Part shown: positions 5,327 through 12,528 of the stretch, one piece after another
How positions within the stretch are numbered: position 1 is the stretch's first letter
Layout: each line of letters begins with the position of its first letter
Virus record (IMG/VR): IMGVR_UViG_3300035698_000337
Coordinates: 1 to 20,487 of that record
Direction: 5' to 3' (one strand)
DNA: 20,487 nucleotides
Source of the DNA: a virus
Notes under the pieces: model-generated
The model's input: the letters and a program-made list of their open reading frames with translations, nothing else
Told to the model about the DNA's origin: nothing
Databases searched by the model: none
Made by a program: the position numbers and the translations under genes

Positions 5327-5674
5327 TTAAACCAACCGCTCAAACTGACATGAAACCCGGAAATACGTACCTGTTATTGCAGATACATCTGGTGGTGCTA
5401 CAAAACGCCATGTTTCCGCTGCTCCAGACCTTGGGTTATCCATTGTAAATGTAACCGACCCGTCTGAAATCGTTGTGCTGAAAAACGTTTCTAAAGTGTC
5501 AATCTGTGCGGAGGTCATTTCGTAGGAAAGCTTGTACATCTTTGGTGATGCAGTTGTGCGCTTTCTGATCTTCATCGGACCCACTTCCATTTTGCTATGG
5601 ATAGCGTTGTCAGGGAAAACCTCTTGATAGCCACCTACGGAAGGCAACGGTAAACTTGCTGGCCATGTCGTCAT
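5327..5674 (-). CDS. Minor tail protein (lambda gpM-like position)
   Basis: A 115-residue protein starting MTTWPASLPLPSVGGYQEVF. It has a KIRKRTTASPKMYKLSYEMT segment and an ending FRVSCQFERLV. This layout (WPxSLP opening, basic RKR segment, aromatic C-terminus) recurs in small phage minor tail proteins encoded directly after the tape measure gene, where lambda has gpM. The ATG overlaps the TGA that ends the tape measure C-terminal segment (ATGA), so the two are probably translationally coupled. A G-rich run on the minus strand 7 bases upstream can serve as a ribosome site independently. I cannot name the protein family with certainty; the tail-tip role rests on gene order. Confidence 0.7.
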   Translation of the reverse strand: MTTWPASLPLPSVGGYQEVFPDNAIHSKMEVGPMKIRKRTTASPKMYKLSYEMTSAQIDTLETFFSTTISDGSVTFTMDNPRSGAAETWRFVAPPDVSAITGTYFRVSCQFERLV

Positions 5675-6096
5675 GCTAACGCCCCCCCTCTATTGATACC
5701 GTACAGTTTCATGCTTCTGTCAAAAGCTCCGTCAGCAAAGCCCTGCTTTACCTCGTCTCTAATAACCACACTTATACTCCTGTTTCCGTTGGCGTCTCGT
5801 GACTCGCTTACCTGTGCTTTCTCTCCGCCACCTCTCTGGTCCACAATGTTTACGCTAACACTAGATGCACCTGCGCCGCTTGCATCAACACCTAATCGAC
5901 CATTAGACCCACGCTTTAAAGGCATGATCGCCTCTGGGCCTGCTTCAGCCATCAAACCGGTGTTACCTCCCGCCATAGGGAACGAAACAGGTGAATCGAA
6001 TACACCTCCCGAAGCAAACTTGCTTAGTTTGCCGTAATCGAATACGCCACCATTCGCAACCAGAGTTGCCGGGTTGATGTTAGCAAAACTTGACGT
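5671..6096 (-). CDS. Tape measure protein C-terminal segment, in frame after an internal TGA
   Basis: This 141-codon open stretch is in the same frame as the tape measure gene and directly follows its TGA. It encodes TSFANINPATLVANGGVFDY and then two repeats of the type GGVFD. Next is MAEAGPEAIMPLKRGSNG, a motif typical of the extreme C-terminal part of phage tape measure proteins. A beta-rich end (SVSVNIVDQRGG, RSISVVIRDEVKQGF) closes it. The first ATG (5974-5976) has no ribosome site. A GGAGGT at 5965-5970 lies 9 bases before TTG 5953-5955 and 12 before ATG 5950-5952, so internal initiation is possible, although those bases also just encode Gly-Gly. The stop overlaps the next gene as ATGA. 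No extra frameshift or stop is seen, so the reading frame appears to be kept under selection. Confidence 0.72.
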   Translation of the reverse strand, partial: TSSFANINPATLVANGGVFDYGKLSKFASGGVFDSPVSFPMAGGNTGLMAEAGPEAIMPLKRGSNGRLGVDASGAGASSVSVNIVDQRGGGEKAQVSESRDANGNRSISVVIRDEVKQGFADGAFDRSMKLYGINRGGALA

Positions 6097-6099
6097 TCA
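6097..6099 (-). other. In-frame TGA inside the tape measure gene
   Basis: On the minus strand the codons read ATC TCA ACA CCT TGA ACG TCA AGT. The frame is identical on both sides of the TGA, and 5671-8316 is otherwise fully open. A small hairpin (GCAAC, loop TCTG, GTTGC at 6056-6069) begins about 27 bases downstream, too weak and too far away to be strong evidence for recoding. The large terminase ends in TGA and the window uses TGG for Trp, so a code with TGA as tryptophan is unlikely. Confidence 0.8.
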
Positions 6100-8316
6100 A
6101 GGTGTTGAGATTGCAGCCCCTCCACCTGGGTAGAAATAATTTCCAAGAAGCGATCCTGCTATCTTTGTTAATCCACCTAGGAAACCACCGCCACCGCCTC
6201 CTGTAACTCCTGATAGCTCGCTGAAAGCATCTTTTGTCCTTCCCGCTTCTAGGCTCATATCCAGCAAGGCAAGAACGATTTTTTTTGCGCTATTTATGAA
6301 TATATCCTGCGCTGTAACGGTTCCGTTTATGACGCCCTCGAAGACATCACCAAACTCACTCGTTTTATCTGACGCGCTGTCTAGCTGATCCTTGTACTTT
6401 CCAAGAGCTCGGTTGTACGTATCTTGTGATATTGCCCCGGACTTGTGTAGCTCTTCCAGCTGTATGAGCTGTGCTTTGTAGATCTCGTTAGGTGTTCTCA
6501 GCTGCTCTTTTAGAAGATTCCCTTCCCTAGTCATCTCGTTTAGCCTCTCTTGCGCAGCGGCTTCCCTTTCTAGGATCTTCGAAAGGTCTGGGGGAGGTTG
6601 CGACCCGTCATTGCCACCTGTAGTTGACGGTGTTCCTGTTGAGTCAACGCCTCTTTCTGCAAAGAACTTTTCCTTTGCCAAGGAAATGCCCACCTTAAGC
6701 TTTTCGTTCTGTGCGTCAAGCAAAGCGTTTTCTTCTATTCTGCTGTTAGCAACCTTAGCAGCTTCCTGCGAGTAGGCTATTTGCTCTTTCTTCAAGCTCT
6801 CGATCTTATCAAGTGCACCCTGATATGCGTCCTGGCTACCTATATAGCTAAGTATGTTCGCAGCAACCTCAACCGCTGTGGTTTGAAGGGAGTACATAGC
6901 CTCTTTCATCTTGGTAATCGCTGATTGAATCCAGTTTTCTAATGAGTTTAGGCCTTTATGAATGTGATTCATTGCAATCATGAAATATCCGCTCACTATT
7001 TCCCATGTTGGCCCAAGAAGCTCAAACTTTCTGTTCAATGTGACTGCCGATCCAATAGCTATAGTTATTGCTGTGACCCAAAAGGTGATGGGGTTTGACA
7101 ACAGAGACAACGTGAAGCCCCTCACTGCGATAGTCATGGAGGTAATACCTGCAACGATAGCCGTGAAGTTCATCGCCAGCAGCCCGGCGGTAAGGCCTAA
7201 TACGGCAACCTTGGCAAGGTCCATATTGTTTGCTAAAAGCTCCATCGCAGGGGCAAGAACCGTAAGAAGAGCGTTACCGACTTCAATGGCTACAATGGTT
7301 AACGCAGACATGAATCTGTTTAGCTTAAACTGAGCCGTTTTGCTCATTTTGTCTAGAGCGCCATCTGTCAAGCCAGCTCTGGTTTCCATCTCTTTTAAGT
7401 TAGCAGCAAAATCACCAGAGGCCTTTCCTGTAAGAGCCATTACAGAACCTAGCGCCTCAACACTTCCGAAAAGTTTTGCCATCTGCTCGGTGTTTCCGCC
7501 TGTCGCTGCTTTTACATCGTCTAAGAATCCAGCAAATCCCTTACTTTTCAGAGCTGCCGCACTGAACTCAATACCTAGCTCTTTAGCAAGATCTACCGCC
7601 TCGCTCGACGGTTTAATGACGTTGGAAATGGCCCCTCTCAATTGGTTCATCGCTACTGAGGTTTGAACACCACCCTTAGTCAATGCAGCTACTGCCGAAA
7701 GAAGCTCCTCAGTAGACACACCTGTTTGCGCTGCTATAGGTGCAACGTTACCGATGGAAGATGATAGCTCGTTAATGGTTGTTTTACCCGCCTTCACTGC
7801 CACAAAGAACGCATCGGATATCTGAGTCGCTGTACCTGCCGAATCGCCGTAGGCATTAAGTACGGATGTCAAGCCGTCGGCTGCCGTGGTTATGTCTGTC
7901 ACACCACCAATAGCGAGCTTGTTGGAAACGGTTAAAATATCTGTGGCCTCTGCTGCGTTTGCGGCTCCGGCAGATATCACCTGATAAAGAGCTTTTGCTT
8001 GCTCGGTAGGAGAAGAACCAAACTCTAATGCTAAAGCCTTGACGCTATCAGTGAGTATGCCCATCTCTCTTGCATCCGGTAGAAGCGTGCTAACCTCAGC
8101 CATAGCAGATCCAAACCCAAGCGCAGCCTCACTAGCTGTTTTTAAAGCTGTTGTGAAAGAGGCAATGCCGCCAAGCTTAAGAAGTAAACCCTGGAATTTT
8201 GAGACCTTAGACCCTGCATCTTCAGAGCTAACCCCAACCTTTTTGATCCCCTTGGCAACCTTTTCGGCACCCTTTTCTTTGAACTCAATTTCGACTACTT
8301 TTGAATCTGACGCCAT
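6097..8316 (-). CDS. Tail tape measure protein (TP901-type), main body
   Basis: This encodes 739 residues up to a TGA at 6097-6099. The protein sets tail length inside the tube and helps pass DNA into the cell. The N-terminal third matches the TP901 tape measure core: AMAEVSTLLPDAREMG near residue 70, then ALEFGSSPTEQAKALYQVIS, and an SVAMNQLRGAISNVIKPS segment. Hydrophobic helices span about residues 332-423 (ALTIVAIEVGNALL, AITIAIGSAVTL). A charged, probably coiled-coil stretch follows (EREAAAQERLNEMTREGNLL). The reading ends in a glycine-rich loop (TGGGGGGFLGGL, YPGGGAAISTP), an abrupt end for the family. The frame continues past the TGA for 141 codons with a typical tape measure C-terminus, so the full product would span 881 positions. 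Confidence 0.93.
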   Translation of the reverse strand: MASDSKVVEIEFKEKGAEKVAKGIKKVGVSSEDAGSKVSKFQGLLLKLGGIASFTTALKTASEAALGFGSAMAEVSTLLPDAREMGILTDSVKALALEFGSSPTEQAKALYQVISAGAANAAEATDILTVSNKLAIGGVTDITTAADGLTSVLNAYGDSAGTATQISDAFFVAVKAGKTTINELSSSIGNVAPIAAQTGVSTEELLSAVAALTKGGVQTSVAMNQLRGAISNVIKPSSEAVDLAKELGIEFSAAALKSKGFAGFLDDVKAATGGNTEQMAKLFGSVEALGSVMALTGKASGDFAANLKEMETRAGLTDGALDKMSKTAQFKLNRFMSALTIVAIEVGNALLTVLAPAMELLANNMDLAKVAVLGLTAGLLAMNFTAIVAGITSMTIAVRGFTLSLLSNPITFWVTAITIAIGSAVTLNRKFELLGPTWEIVSGYFMIAMNHIHKGLNSLENWIQSAITKMKEAMYSLQTTAVEVAANILSYIGSQDAYQGALDKIESLKKEQIAYSQEAAKVANSRIEENALLDAQNEKLKVGISLAKEKFFAERGVDSTGTPSTTGGNDGSQPPPDLSKILEREAAAQERLNEMTREGNLLKEQLRTPNEIYKAQLIQLEELHKSGAISQDTYNRALGKYKDQLDSASDKTSEFGDVFEGVINGTVTAQDIFINSAKKIVLALLDMSLEAGRTKDAFSELSGVTGGGGGGFLGGLTKIAGSLLGNYFYPGGGAAISTP

Positions 8317-8323
8317 TATTCCC

Positions 8324-8725
8324 TCACAATTCTAGCACGGCTCTTGATACCGACCTTTCGGCGGCGGCAAGTGCTTTTTGCACGAAGCCAATGGGTGCCT
8401 GTCCGCTCCAACCGTTATTTAATCTTTCAATGTACGGAAGATTGTTGGTAAGGAAAATAGATTTCCCTTCCTCGGACTGCAAAACATTCTCTTGCTGATT
8501 GGCGTAGTTGTCTTGTGAGTTTGTGTTTTCTGTGACGGACGTATCAGGTGATCCGATTCCCACAAACCAGTTAGATCTCGCTCTTCCTGTGTCGACTGGT
8601 GTTGCGAGCACTACGTTCTTTAGAGACTCTAAAGCTATTACACGCATCGACTTGTTAGTCCTTATCTTAAAAGACTCAGCGTACTTAAACATGTCTTCAC
8701 CCAACTCATTTAGACTTTGCGCCAC
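8324..8725 (-). CDS. HK97 gp10-like neck / tail completion protein
   Basis: A 133-residue protein with the layout of the HK97 gp10-like family. A charged N-terminal helix leads to TPVDTGRARSNW (about residues 42-53), then NNLPYIERLNNGWSGQAP and a C-terminal FVQKALAAAERSV helix. Members join the head-tail connector to the tail or help finish the tail. The start is GTG 8723-8725 with a GAGGTG ribosome site about 6 bases upstream, and the gene overlaps the end of the chaperone extension by 20 bases. The location is unusual: the family normally lies among the connector genes between capsid and tail tube, but here it sits between the chaperone and the tape measure. Family membership is likely; its exact role in this position is open. 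Confidence 0.75.
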   Translation of the reverse strand: MAQSLNELGEDMFKYAESFKIRTNKSMRVIALESLKNVVLATPVDTGRARSNWFVGIGSPDTSVTENTNSQDNYANQQENVLQSEEGKSIFLTNNLPYIERLNNGWSGQAPIGFVQKALAAAERSVSRAVLEL

Positions 8726-9041
8726 GCTTCACCTCGTTGTTACGCCACTCCAGGTACACCTCGTCCATTCTCTGAATCACATCCACAAGGTCGTCAAACA
8801 TTTCGCATAGCTCATGTCTGCTTGCATATGCGTCAATCGCAGTCCAAGGTATGTAACCTTCACCCCGGCAGCCATTGAGTTCCCAGAAAGCATTCCAATA
8901 GACCTGAAATTCCTCTCTCATTTTCGGCTTCTCTAAGAGAGCTTTAGGTATGGGGTGTCCAGATTCTAAAGCCGCCATGAGGATCTTGTCCTCGTGCGAG
9001 CCTGTTAGGCTAATCTTGTATTGCAGGAACTCGGCTATTTC
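8706..9041 (-). CDS. Tail assembly chaperone, -1 frameshift extension (GT-type C-terminus)
   Basis: This frame becomes continuous with the upstream chaperone only after a -1 slip at 9041-9047. It then reads EIAEFLQYKISLTGSHEDKI into MAALESGHPIPKALLEKPKM, followed by a compact Trp/Tyr-rich domain (VYWNAFWELNGCRGEGYIPW, AIDAYASRHELCEMF). It ends in a basic tail. The extension is 111 residues and the fusion would be 247. As with lambda gpG/gpGT, a short and a long chaperone would bind the tape measure and recruit tube subunits. An internal ATG at 8976-8978 could start a separate 90-residue protein, but its only upstream purine run (GAGG, about 10 bases away) is modest. The frame stays open from the slip site to that ATG, which would be pointless for a separate gene. 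Confidence 0.85.
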   Translation of the reverse strand, partial: EIAEFLQYKISLTGSHEDKILMAALESGHPIPKALLEKPKMREEFQVYWNAFWELNGCRGEGYIPWTAIDAYASRHELCEMFDDLVDVIQRMDEVYLEWRNNEVKRGAKSK

Positions 9042-9448
9042 TTTTTTAGCGTTTCTCTTTCCTCTTGCTGGAAGTTGTCAATTTTCATTGCCTGTGACTG
9101 GACTTCCCATAGGAGGTCTGGCAAATCAGTAAAGATCTTTTCTACGTTAGCTTGAGAGAATGGCATCTCGTTGTCGTTGTCGTCCTTAATCCCTGTCCAA
9201 GCAATAACAACGGACTCTGCATAGACTTTTGCAAGGATCTCTATCACCTTGTCGTCGTCAAGCATCTGTTTCTCCATCTGCAAGGCGTAGGGCTTAGAGT
9301 GCTTCCTGTAGGATTTTGCAAAGTTCTTGTTTGCCTTACCGTTTGCTCTGAGAACTGTCATTGTGACTCCCTCAGCAAACGTCAAGATAACCCCTTTCTT
9401 GCTTTCAAGATCTGAGTTTGTTTTATACATCTTGTATATTGAGGACAT
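9035..9448 (-). CDS. Tail assembly chaperone, short form (lambda gpG-like role)
   Basis: A 137-residue helical, charged protein between the tail tube and tape measure genes, the universal place of tail assembly chaperones in long-tailed phages. It has an early VILTFAEGVTMTVLRANGKA strand pair, an aromatic/basic segment (FAKSYRKHSKPYALQ), a helix with IEILAKVYAESVVIAW, and an acidic/Gln-rich end. The gene finishes in a run of Lys codons that forms the slip site producing the long form. In known systems the short form is made in excess and coats the tape measure until tube assembly. Recognition here is by position, size and the frameshift rather than by strong motifs. The start ATG 9446-9448 follows an AGG-containing leader after the hairpin at 9474-9503. 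Confidence 0.85.
   Translation of the reverse strand: MSSIYKMYKTNSDLESKKGVILTFAEGVTMTVLRANGKANKNFAKSYRKHSKPYALQMEKQMLDDDKVIEILAKVYAESVVIAWTGIKDDNDNEMPFSQANVEKIFTDLPDLLWEVQSQAMKIDNFQQEERETLKKK
9041..9047 (-). promoter_or_regulatory. Programmed -1 ribosomal frameshift site A AAA AAG
   Basis: The minus strand reads CTA AAA AAG AAA TAG at the end of the short chaperone, so the heptamer A AAA AAG is in the correct phase (X XXY YYZ) two codons before the stop. This heptamer is one of the most slippery sequences known in bacteria, as in dnaX. After the slip, reading continues in the -1 frame (GAA ATA GCC GAG) with no stop until 8706. A hairpin AGCCT-loop-AGGCT (8999-9011) lies about 29 bases downstream, farther than usual, and may contribute to a larger structure. 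Confidence 0.9.
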
Positions 9449-9511: not shown

Positions 9512-10957
9512 TTATTCTTCCGTGTACCAGAATCGCTGCACCTGGATGGTGTAGTCGTATGTGGCATTACGAATTGCCTGATACCCAAGCTCGGTGGTCA
9601 CATCGGTATTCTTACCTGAAACCTCTGGTGCTCCGCTAGAGTACTTCACACGTGGCAAGTCGAATAGGTAGACATTACCAGAGCTGTCCTTGAAGTGGAA
9701 TTCAAGAGCTGTCTCTGTGTTATTTAGCACTTTGTCTAGTAGAGTGCTGTCCCCGAAGTACGATGTTAATGTTCCTGTTACGGAACACTCGCCGACACCC
9801 ATATCAACCGAGCCAATGTTAGCTATAGCTTGCTGACGTCTCAGGCTGTTTGAAACATCAAGTCCAACGCTTAGGGCTAGGTTAGGGCTAGCCAACACGC
9901 TGCCGCCTTCGAATAGCTGTCCTACGTTGGTTGAGGTATTCATAACATCCGTTGTAGTAACGGCTGCGTCTGTAGCACCTGAAGTTCTAGTCGTTGACGA
10001 GGTTGAGTTCTTACCAAGAAAACCAAAGGTGCAATTTGCAATGCTCGCGCTTTCAGCAGTCAAAGAGAACGTATCCACTGTCATTCCTGTAAATACTTCG
10101 TACAGTGGTGACGAGTGGTCCAAGAACTGCCTTTCTAGAGAGTAGCTCTTTTTTGTGGTTCCATTTCTTAGGTAATCACCAACGAAAACCATGATGGTCT
10201 TCCCTGTCCCAGTATCGGTTGTCCATCCAGTTGGAAGTACATCAAATGTTAAAGCTGTTGCTGCGATAACTGATATTCTTGCCCAGCCATTACATGCTGC
10301 TGTTGCAAACTGATCGGCTGTTGCTGCTCCACCAATTTTAACCCACTCGCCTACTGCTAGGCCCATATCGGTAAAATCAAGTAGTGTGCTTCCAAGTCCT
10401 GAAGCTGCTGCGGTGATATCCGCGCTTGCACCTTGAAACCCAACCTGTCTAAGTACGGCAGTAGACGGTGGTGTTTCATTAACTGTGCCATCGGGGGCTA
10501 CTAGTGCTGTAGCTGAGGTTCCATCCTGAGCAGCAAAAACACCGTTGTTTGCAGCTTCTGTAAATCCTGTGGCCTCAACAAGCATGTACTCAACATAATC
10601 GAGTGTTTTGTCGGTTATGGCGTATGTATCTGTTGACGCGGTTACTCCGGTGATCTCTGTGCTTCCTGAATGCAGAGCCTTCTCTACCCAGTCTGAAAAC
10701 AACGATCCTTCAAGTAGCTTGTCTTGAGAATTGAACGAAAGTTCCATTTCAAGATTACCGCCGGCTTCTTTGTCCACGAGGATCAAGTCTGTAACCTGTC
10801 TGTCCGAACGAATTTCATTCGAAGATATGGTTACGGGTTGAAACGAAAGGTTTGGCTCACCTGTAACTCTGAGCGTCTGAAATTTTGGTGATGTTGGAGT
10901 CGTTCCAAAAGTAGACTCCTCGATTATACCCACCTGGGTTCTGTTTGCATCGGACAT
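9512..10957 (-). CDS. Major tail tube protein
   Basis: A 481-residue protein beginning MSDANRTQVGIIEESTFGTT, an opening typical of phage tail tube proteins. LRVTGEPNLSFQPVTISSNE and EMELSFNSQDKLLEG follow and form the start of the tube fold. A middle stretch, roughly residues 95-260, is rich in Ala, Thr and Gly and may be an inserted surface domain. The C-terminal half returns to beta strands (TFGFLGKNSTSSTTRTSG, VSVGLD-type and LPRVKYSSG segments). The subunits stack as rings around the tape measure. The gene sits between tail terminator and chaperone, as expected. AGGAG lies 7 bases before the ATG, the best ribosome site in the tail block, consistent with high expression. The unusual length is explained by the middle insertion. 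Confidence 0.9.
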   Translation of the reverse strand: MSDANRTQVGIIEESTFGTTPTSPKFQTLRVTGEPNLSFQPVTISSNEIRSDRQVTDLILVDKEAGGNLEMELSFNSQDKLLEGSLFSDWVEKALHSGSTEITGVTASTDTYAITDKTLDYVEYMLVEATGFTEAANNGVFAAQDGTSATALVAPDGTVNETPPSTAVLRQVGFQGASADITAAASGLGSTLLDFTDMGLAVGEWVKIGGAATADQFATAACNGWARISVIAATALTFDVLPTGWTTDTGTGKTIMVFVGDYLRNGTTKKSYSLERQFLDHSSPLYEVFTGMTVDTFSLTAESASIANCTFGFLGKNSTSSTTRTSGATDAAVTTTDVMNTSTNVGQLFEGGSVLASPNLALSVGLDVSNSLRRQQAIANIGSVDMGVGECSVTGTLTSYFGDSTLLDKVLNNTETALEFHFKDSSGNVYLFDLPRVKYSSGAPEVSGKNTDVTTELGYQAIRNATYDYTIQVQRFWYTEE

Positions 10958-12297: not shown

Positions 12298-12528
12298 TCA
12301 GTAGCTTGTTTTTGACGGCTTAGATTTCTTCGCTTTTTTTCTTTCTGAATACCCGAATCCATCATCGTCTGCATGCTCTTCCGGCTGTGCTTCAACCTTC
12401 GGCTGTTCTTCAGTTGGGTTCTTTTCGAAATAGTATCCTGAGGAAATGTGTTCTTTAATACTTGTGTTCGTATGTAACGTCTTTGGATTCCCTTCTACGT
12501 CCCACACGGTCTTACAAAACTTGCTCAT
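12298..12528 (-). CDS. Small charged protein of unknown function
   Basis: A 76-residue protein I do not recognise. The N-terminal half (KFCKTVWDVEGNPKTLHTNT, then HISSGYYFEKNP) could form a small fold. The second half is low-complexity, first acidic (EEQPKVEAQPEEHADDDG) and then strongly basic (ERKKAKKSKPSKTSY), and is probably disordered. An AAGGAG ribosome site lies about 9 bases before the ATG, immediately after the T run of the intrinsic terminator, so it is translated from transcripts that pass that terminator. Phages often encode a small protein between capsid and connector genes, but I have no basis for a function. A stretch of about 50 bases without a gene follows it. Confidence 0.65.
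   Translation of the reverse strand: MSKFCKTVWDVEGNPKTLHTNTSIKEHISSGYYFEKNPTEEQPKVEAQPEEHADDDGFGYSERKKAKKSKPSKTSY

Follow-up and report, generated by a model that had tools for sequence, protein, structure and literature searches.

An in-frame TGA separates the body of a predicted siphophage tape measure gene from its conserved C-terminal domain

The sequence analysed is a lone virus record, the whole stretch of which (20,487 bases) is referred to as the window. Its late genes, from terminase to tail, form a block on the minus strand that includes a predicted tape measure protein (TMP) gene with one in-frame TGA. The features of this gene and its surroundings are:

9512-10957: likely tail tube gene (putative)
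8706-8978, minus strand: Phage_TAC_18 frame, 5' of the TMP gene, assigned by profile match
6100..8316, minus strand: TMP body, 739 codons with ATG start; conserved N-terminal region at residues about 50-400
6097..6099, minus strand: in-frame TGA at codon 740, in the context ACA CCT TGA ACG (Thr-Pro-stop), with A as the +4 base
5671..6096, minus strand: in-frame continuation, 141 codons plus final TGA; TMP C-terminal domain with two copies of GGVFD and MAEAGPEAIMPLKRG
5976 and 5952, minus strand: internal ATGs, weak candidate starts; 5976 without Shine-Dalgarno (SD) sequence, 5952 with GGGAGG 12-13 nt upstream
5671..5674, minus strand: ATGA overlap of the continuation's stop (TGA 5673-5671) with the start of the next gene (ATG 5674-5672)
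5327..5674, minus strand: next gene, intact, 115 aa, phrog_384-like virion protein

The gene order is typical for a TMP, with a chaperone pair carrying a -1 frameshift site, the TMP and the distal tail genes; 3' of the TMP, profile matches were obtained for phrog_384, phrog_396 and NlpC/P60 genes. In the chaperone pair (8706-9448, minus strand), the slippery heptamer A AAA AAG (9041-9047) is located immediately ahead of the TAG that ends the upstream frame, and the -1 frame past the heptamer continues into the Phage_TAC_18 frame, an arrangement predicted to be a lambda G/GT-like programmed -1 frameshift.

The body matched Pfam PhageMin_Tail (E=3.8e-29) and 20 PHROG families, 19 of the 20 being named tail length tape measure protein, phrog_991 (E=3.9e-60) among the matches. 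Judged by these profiles, 8316-6100 is predicted to encode a siphophage-type TMP, in agreement with the identity proposed in an earlier note on this DNA. The same note had described the 739-codon body and the 141-codon continuation as sharing one frame, with a lone TGA at 6099-6097 between them, and had pointed to the two GGVFD copies, MAEAGPEAIMPLKRG and the ATGA overlap; all of these were found. Owing to the TGA, the C-terminal domain and the body do not form one uninterrupted frame here, and an intact gene without the stop would be expected to comprise 881 codons.

At this base composition, the chance of 141 open codons is about 2e-4. Codon bias, with the other genes of the window as the model, was 0.073 bits/codon in the continuation vs 0.069 in the body, GC3 was 0.447 vs 0.451, and the remaining two frames of that strand contain 10 and 11 stops across the continuation. 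As open length, codon usage and GC3 equal to the body and stop-rich alternative frames all point the same way, the continuation is genuinely coding in its ancestral reading frame, and decay has not visibly begun in it. It further matched phrog_1716 (E=2.6e-18, positions 805-922 of 943), carries a GPEAIMPL motif, and aligns to TMP C-termini with identities of up to 57% over most of its length, the homology starting at about residue 14. The proposal that this C-terminus is genuine and undecayed was thus borne out by codon bias, GC3, homology and the lack of any further stop; intact codon bias and homology are, however, expected for a fresh mutation too. In the alignment, the stop falls into a linker whose length and sequence vary, directly before the conserved FANGG/GGVF stretch. 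As a side observation, the last 200 residues of lambda gpH (L207) contain FATGG/YATGG repeats and a GEFVF stretch at the position of GPEAIMPL, and may represent the counterpart of the same C-terminal domain.

With the C-terminal query, 80 loci were obtained among viral contigs; in all 80 the frame carrying the motif is open over at least 100 codons ahead of it, and 0/80 show a stop within the 90 residues preceding the motif. In about 26 of the 80, the frame around the domain is short, at roughly 210-270 codons, and these loci are putative gene-transfer-agent-like short tape measures. With the N-terminal profile (A1), bacterial genomes gave 12 loci and viral contigs 80. One uninterrupted frame combines the homologous N-terminal domain with the GPEA motif in a Brucella endophytica contig (L116) and in six viral contigs (L163, L167, L169, L184, L191 and L199; L183 is the same as L184 but truncated at its end). 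These seven GPEAIMPL-type TMPs are homologous to ours at both ends and similar in total length, with frames of 833-1002 codons, a range that includes the 881 expected for our gene, but have no stop at the junction. A total of 26 homologous TMP frames, including the near-duplicate pairs L035/L036 and L092/L093, align with ours both before and after the stop, and 0/26 are interrupted there, all of them being distant relatives of about 35-60% identity. The TMP of Dinoroseobacter phage vB_DshS_R26L resembles ours in its N-terminal domain (49% identity over residues 50-401), in being of the PhageMin_Tail / phrog_991, phrog_23013 type, and in its location after chaperone genes and before distal tail genes; it differs in consisting of one uninterrupted frame without GPEA motif, whereas in ours a TGA precedes a GPEA-type C-terminus.

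Two further observations were made among the relatives. The N-terminal domain is common to L107, L127, L130, L148 and others on the one hand and L116, L163 and L169 on the other, with unrelated C-termini that do or do not carry the GPEA motif, so that TMP ends look to be exchanged as modules. In L162 (about 6001-7542), the TMP frame of 508 codons is followed, after '...FFQKLGNW', by non-homologous and stop-rich sequence, perhaps as the result of an insertion, a chimera or an assembly break.

Interruptions were surveyed with non-overlapping frames in about 200 sequences of related loci, amounting to 1.7 Mb, and the 26 spanning frames above come from this survey. Elsewhere in this material, coding-strand interruptions of comparable support were not seen, and such breaks are therefore uncommon in it; the matches left outside the window are weak, run antisense within short-TMP-type loci, or lie 5' of a gene start (L045). 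Closer relatives were sought among viral contigs with the body, which returned one relative only (36% identity), and with the capsid, which returned none. A DNA pattern spanning the junction, its stop codon left open, gave four matches, which were unrelated chance ones and were discarded, and a 27-mer taken from the continuation had no match in the collections searched, which may omit records very near the window's own. We accordingly use 'private' for a stop that is absent from every relative examined, all of which are distant. The earlier note had held that close relatives with an uninterrupted gene would make the stop an error or a private mutation. As all testable relatives are uninterrupted at the junction (26/26), the stop falls on that side; the relatives are distant, however, and the close ones that the note had in mind were not found.

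What the loss of the C-terminus would entail can be estimated from TMPs of other phages. In the lactococcal phage TP901-1, about 60 C-terminal TMP residues are required, and deletion of the last 30 leads to the formation of only heads (PMC5099701). In T5 the TMP, pb2, undergoes cleavage, and 35 residues of the C-terminal piece are visible in the tip of the tail (PMC10038345); cleavage of lambda gpH takes place at a late stage of tail assembly (PMC3224144). By analogy to these TMPs, which belong to different families from that of the window, a phage with a strict stop at codon 740 is predicted to be defective. The options would then be a prophage that is defective, a consensus that is wrong or represents a minority, or leakage at the stop, and among these one private base change is the simplest reading. 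The comparison to lambda drawn in the earlier note holds in so far as gpH and pb2 are indeed proteolytically cut, and as in ours the C-terminal part becomes separated from the body. It is an analogy only: the T5 piece stays in the tip and the last 30 residues of TP901-1 TMP are needed, so that truncation of a TMP cannot be equated with its cleavage, and the separation in lambda and T5 results from proteolysis after full-length synthesis, whereas ours would result from a translational stop.

Readthrough, an internal start, a nonsense mutation and a base error had been put forward as competing models, which is a fair list. We consider it probable that one private base change, either a recent nonsense mutation in a phage or prophage or an error of the assembled consensus, affects an otherwise intact TMP gene; this is favoured because the stop is absent from the relatives, the continuation is undecayed, TGA is an ordinary stop here, and no readthrough element was found. 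The gene would be an ordinary siphophage-type TMP gene of about 881 codons, in which a single base change turned codon 740 into TGA, at a site in the variable linker that joins the body to the conserved C-terminal domain. We infer that this change was recent. If real and strict, the stop would result in a 739-residue TMP without the part that joins the tail tip in related systems, and the phage would then either be defective or rely on a low level of leakage at UGA-A. Two points count against this reading: since the TMP C-terminus of TP901-1 is essential (PMC5099701), it would be surprising for a replicating phage to carry a strict stop in the majority of its genomes, and such breaks are uncommon in the related loci surveyed.

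Functional UGA readthrough, in which translation mostly ends at codon 740 and a few ribosomes insert tryptophan or another near-cognate residue to yield an 881-residue form, with short and long forms coexisting or only the long one used in tails, is unlikely in our estimate. It would account for an intact, in-frame continuation and would be compatible with the low demand for the protein, as few TMP copies per tail suffice. An in-frame UGA that precedes a long coding extension also underlies the A1 protein of the RNA coliphage Q-beta, a product of leaky UGA readthrough; here, unlike in Q-beta A1, conservation of the stop is not seen in relatives, the case is known from sequence alone, and the virus class is a different one. 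Two local features are weak pointers in the same direction: the UGA-A context, one base, said in PMC5289835, with reference to Engelberg-Kulka 1981, to be readily misread in E. coli by tRNA-Trp, and the proline before the stop, one residue, C-terminal proline being linked to inefficient termination in the work that PMC3985003 lists as Hayes et al. 2002. Together they make some leakage at codon 740 weakly plausible, but UGA-A also ends an ordinary gene at 12298, so the context is not distinctive. Against readthrough further stand the 0/26 spanning frames, distant as these relatives are, the lack of an Rfam match (E<=1) or SECIS in 5850-6300, an RNA fold 3' of the stop with a z of -1.18, no better than most shuffles, and the lack of any precedent for TMP readthrough or split TMP genes in the literature searched. 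Programmed readthrough with two TMP forms, as considered before, is not favoured by any of the evidence, the stop being absent from all testable relatives. The more specific idea that a leaky UGA provides few full-length TMPs with a tip-binding C-terminus among many truncated ones, as a translational counterpart of the proteolytic trimming in lambda and T5, is a long shot. Selenocysteine, an RNA element and a suppressor tRNA were rejected as the Rfam and tRNA searches were empty: no SECIS lies 3' of the UGA as in a selenoprotein gene, and no tRNA gene, suppressor or other, is present in the window. A reassigned genetic code (4, 25 or a similar one), with TGA translated by phage or host as an amino acid, is next to inconceivable; recoded phages do have in-frame TGA in late structural genes such as this one, but TGA closes nine other frames of the window, counting the continuation, at positions where genes are expected to end. 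Reassignment was therefore rejected, also in view of the missing suppressor tRNA, and TGA taken as an ordinary stop.

An internal start near 5950 had been suggested in the earlier note. Such a start (5976/5952), or reinitiation after the stop, would give two proteins, a 739-aa TMP and a short C-terminal one, and the two ATGs and the SD-like GGGAGG before 5952 do exist. Both ATGs lie inside the conserved motif, however, and the GGGAGG, the only SD-like sequence, is explained by the codons for the motif's Gly-Gly and is 12-13 nt off, while 5976 is devoid of an SD. As the homology begins 80-105 nt before these ATGs, the small protein would be without the first part of the domain, and no checked relative has a stop between body and C-terminal domain; internal initiation is thus not favoured, and the two-protein model is very improbable. 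Somewhat easier to entertain, although still unlikely, is a 739-aa form that would function as TMP by itself after loss of the C-terminal domain, with the continuation as a fresh relic. Many TMPs with the same N-terminal domain are indeed without the GPEA motif, but these carry other long C-terminal parts and mostly comprise 800-2000 aa; the heads-only phenotype of TP901-1 lacking its last 30 TMP residues (PMC5099701) and the undecayed continuation likewise argue against a short functional TMP.

For metagenomic phage records in general, a lone in-frame stop, considered in the absence of close relatives or reads, constitutes weak evidence for recoding, however healthy the downstream sequence. 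If the stop in this TMP gene were both fixed and leaky, it would represent a new way to two TMP forms, and would allow testing why tails need a removable C-terminal piece.
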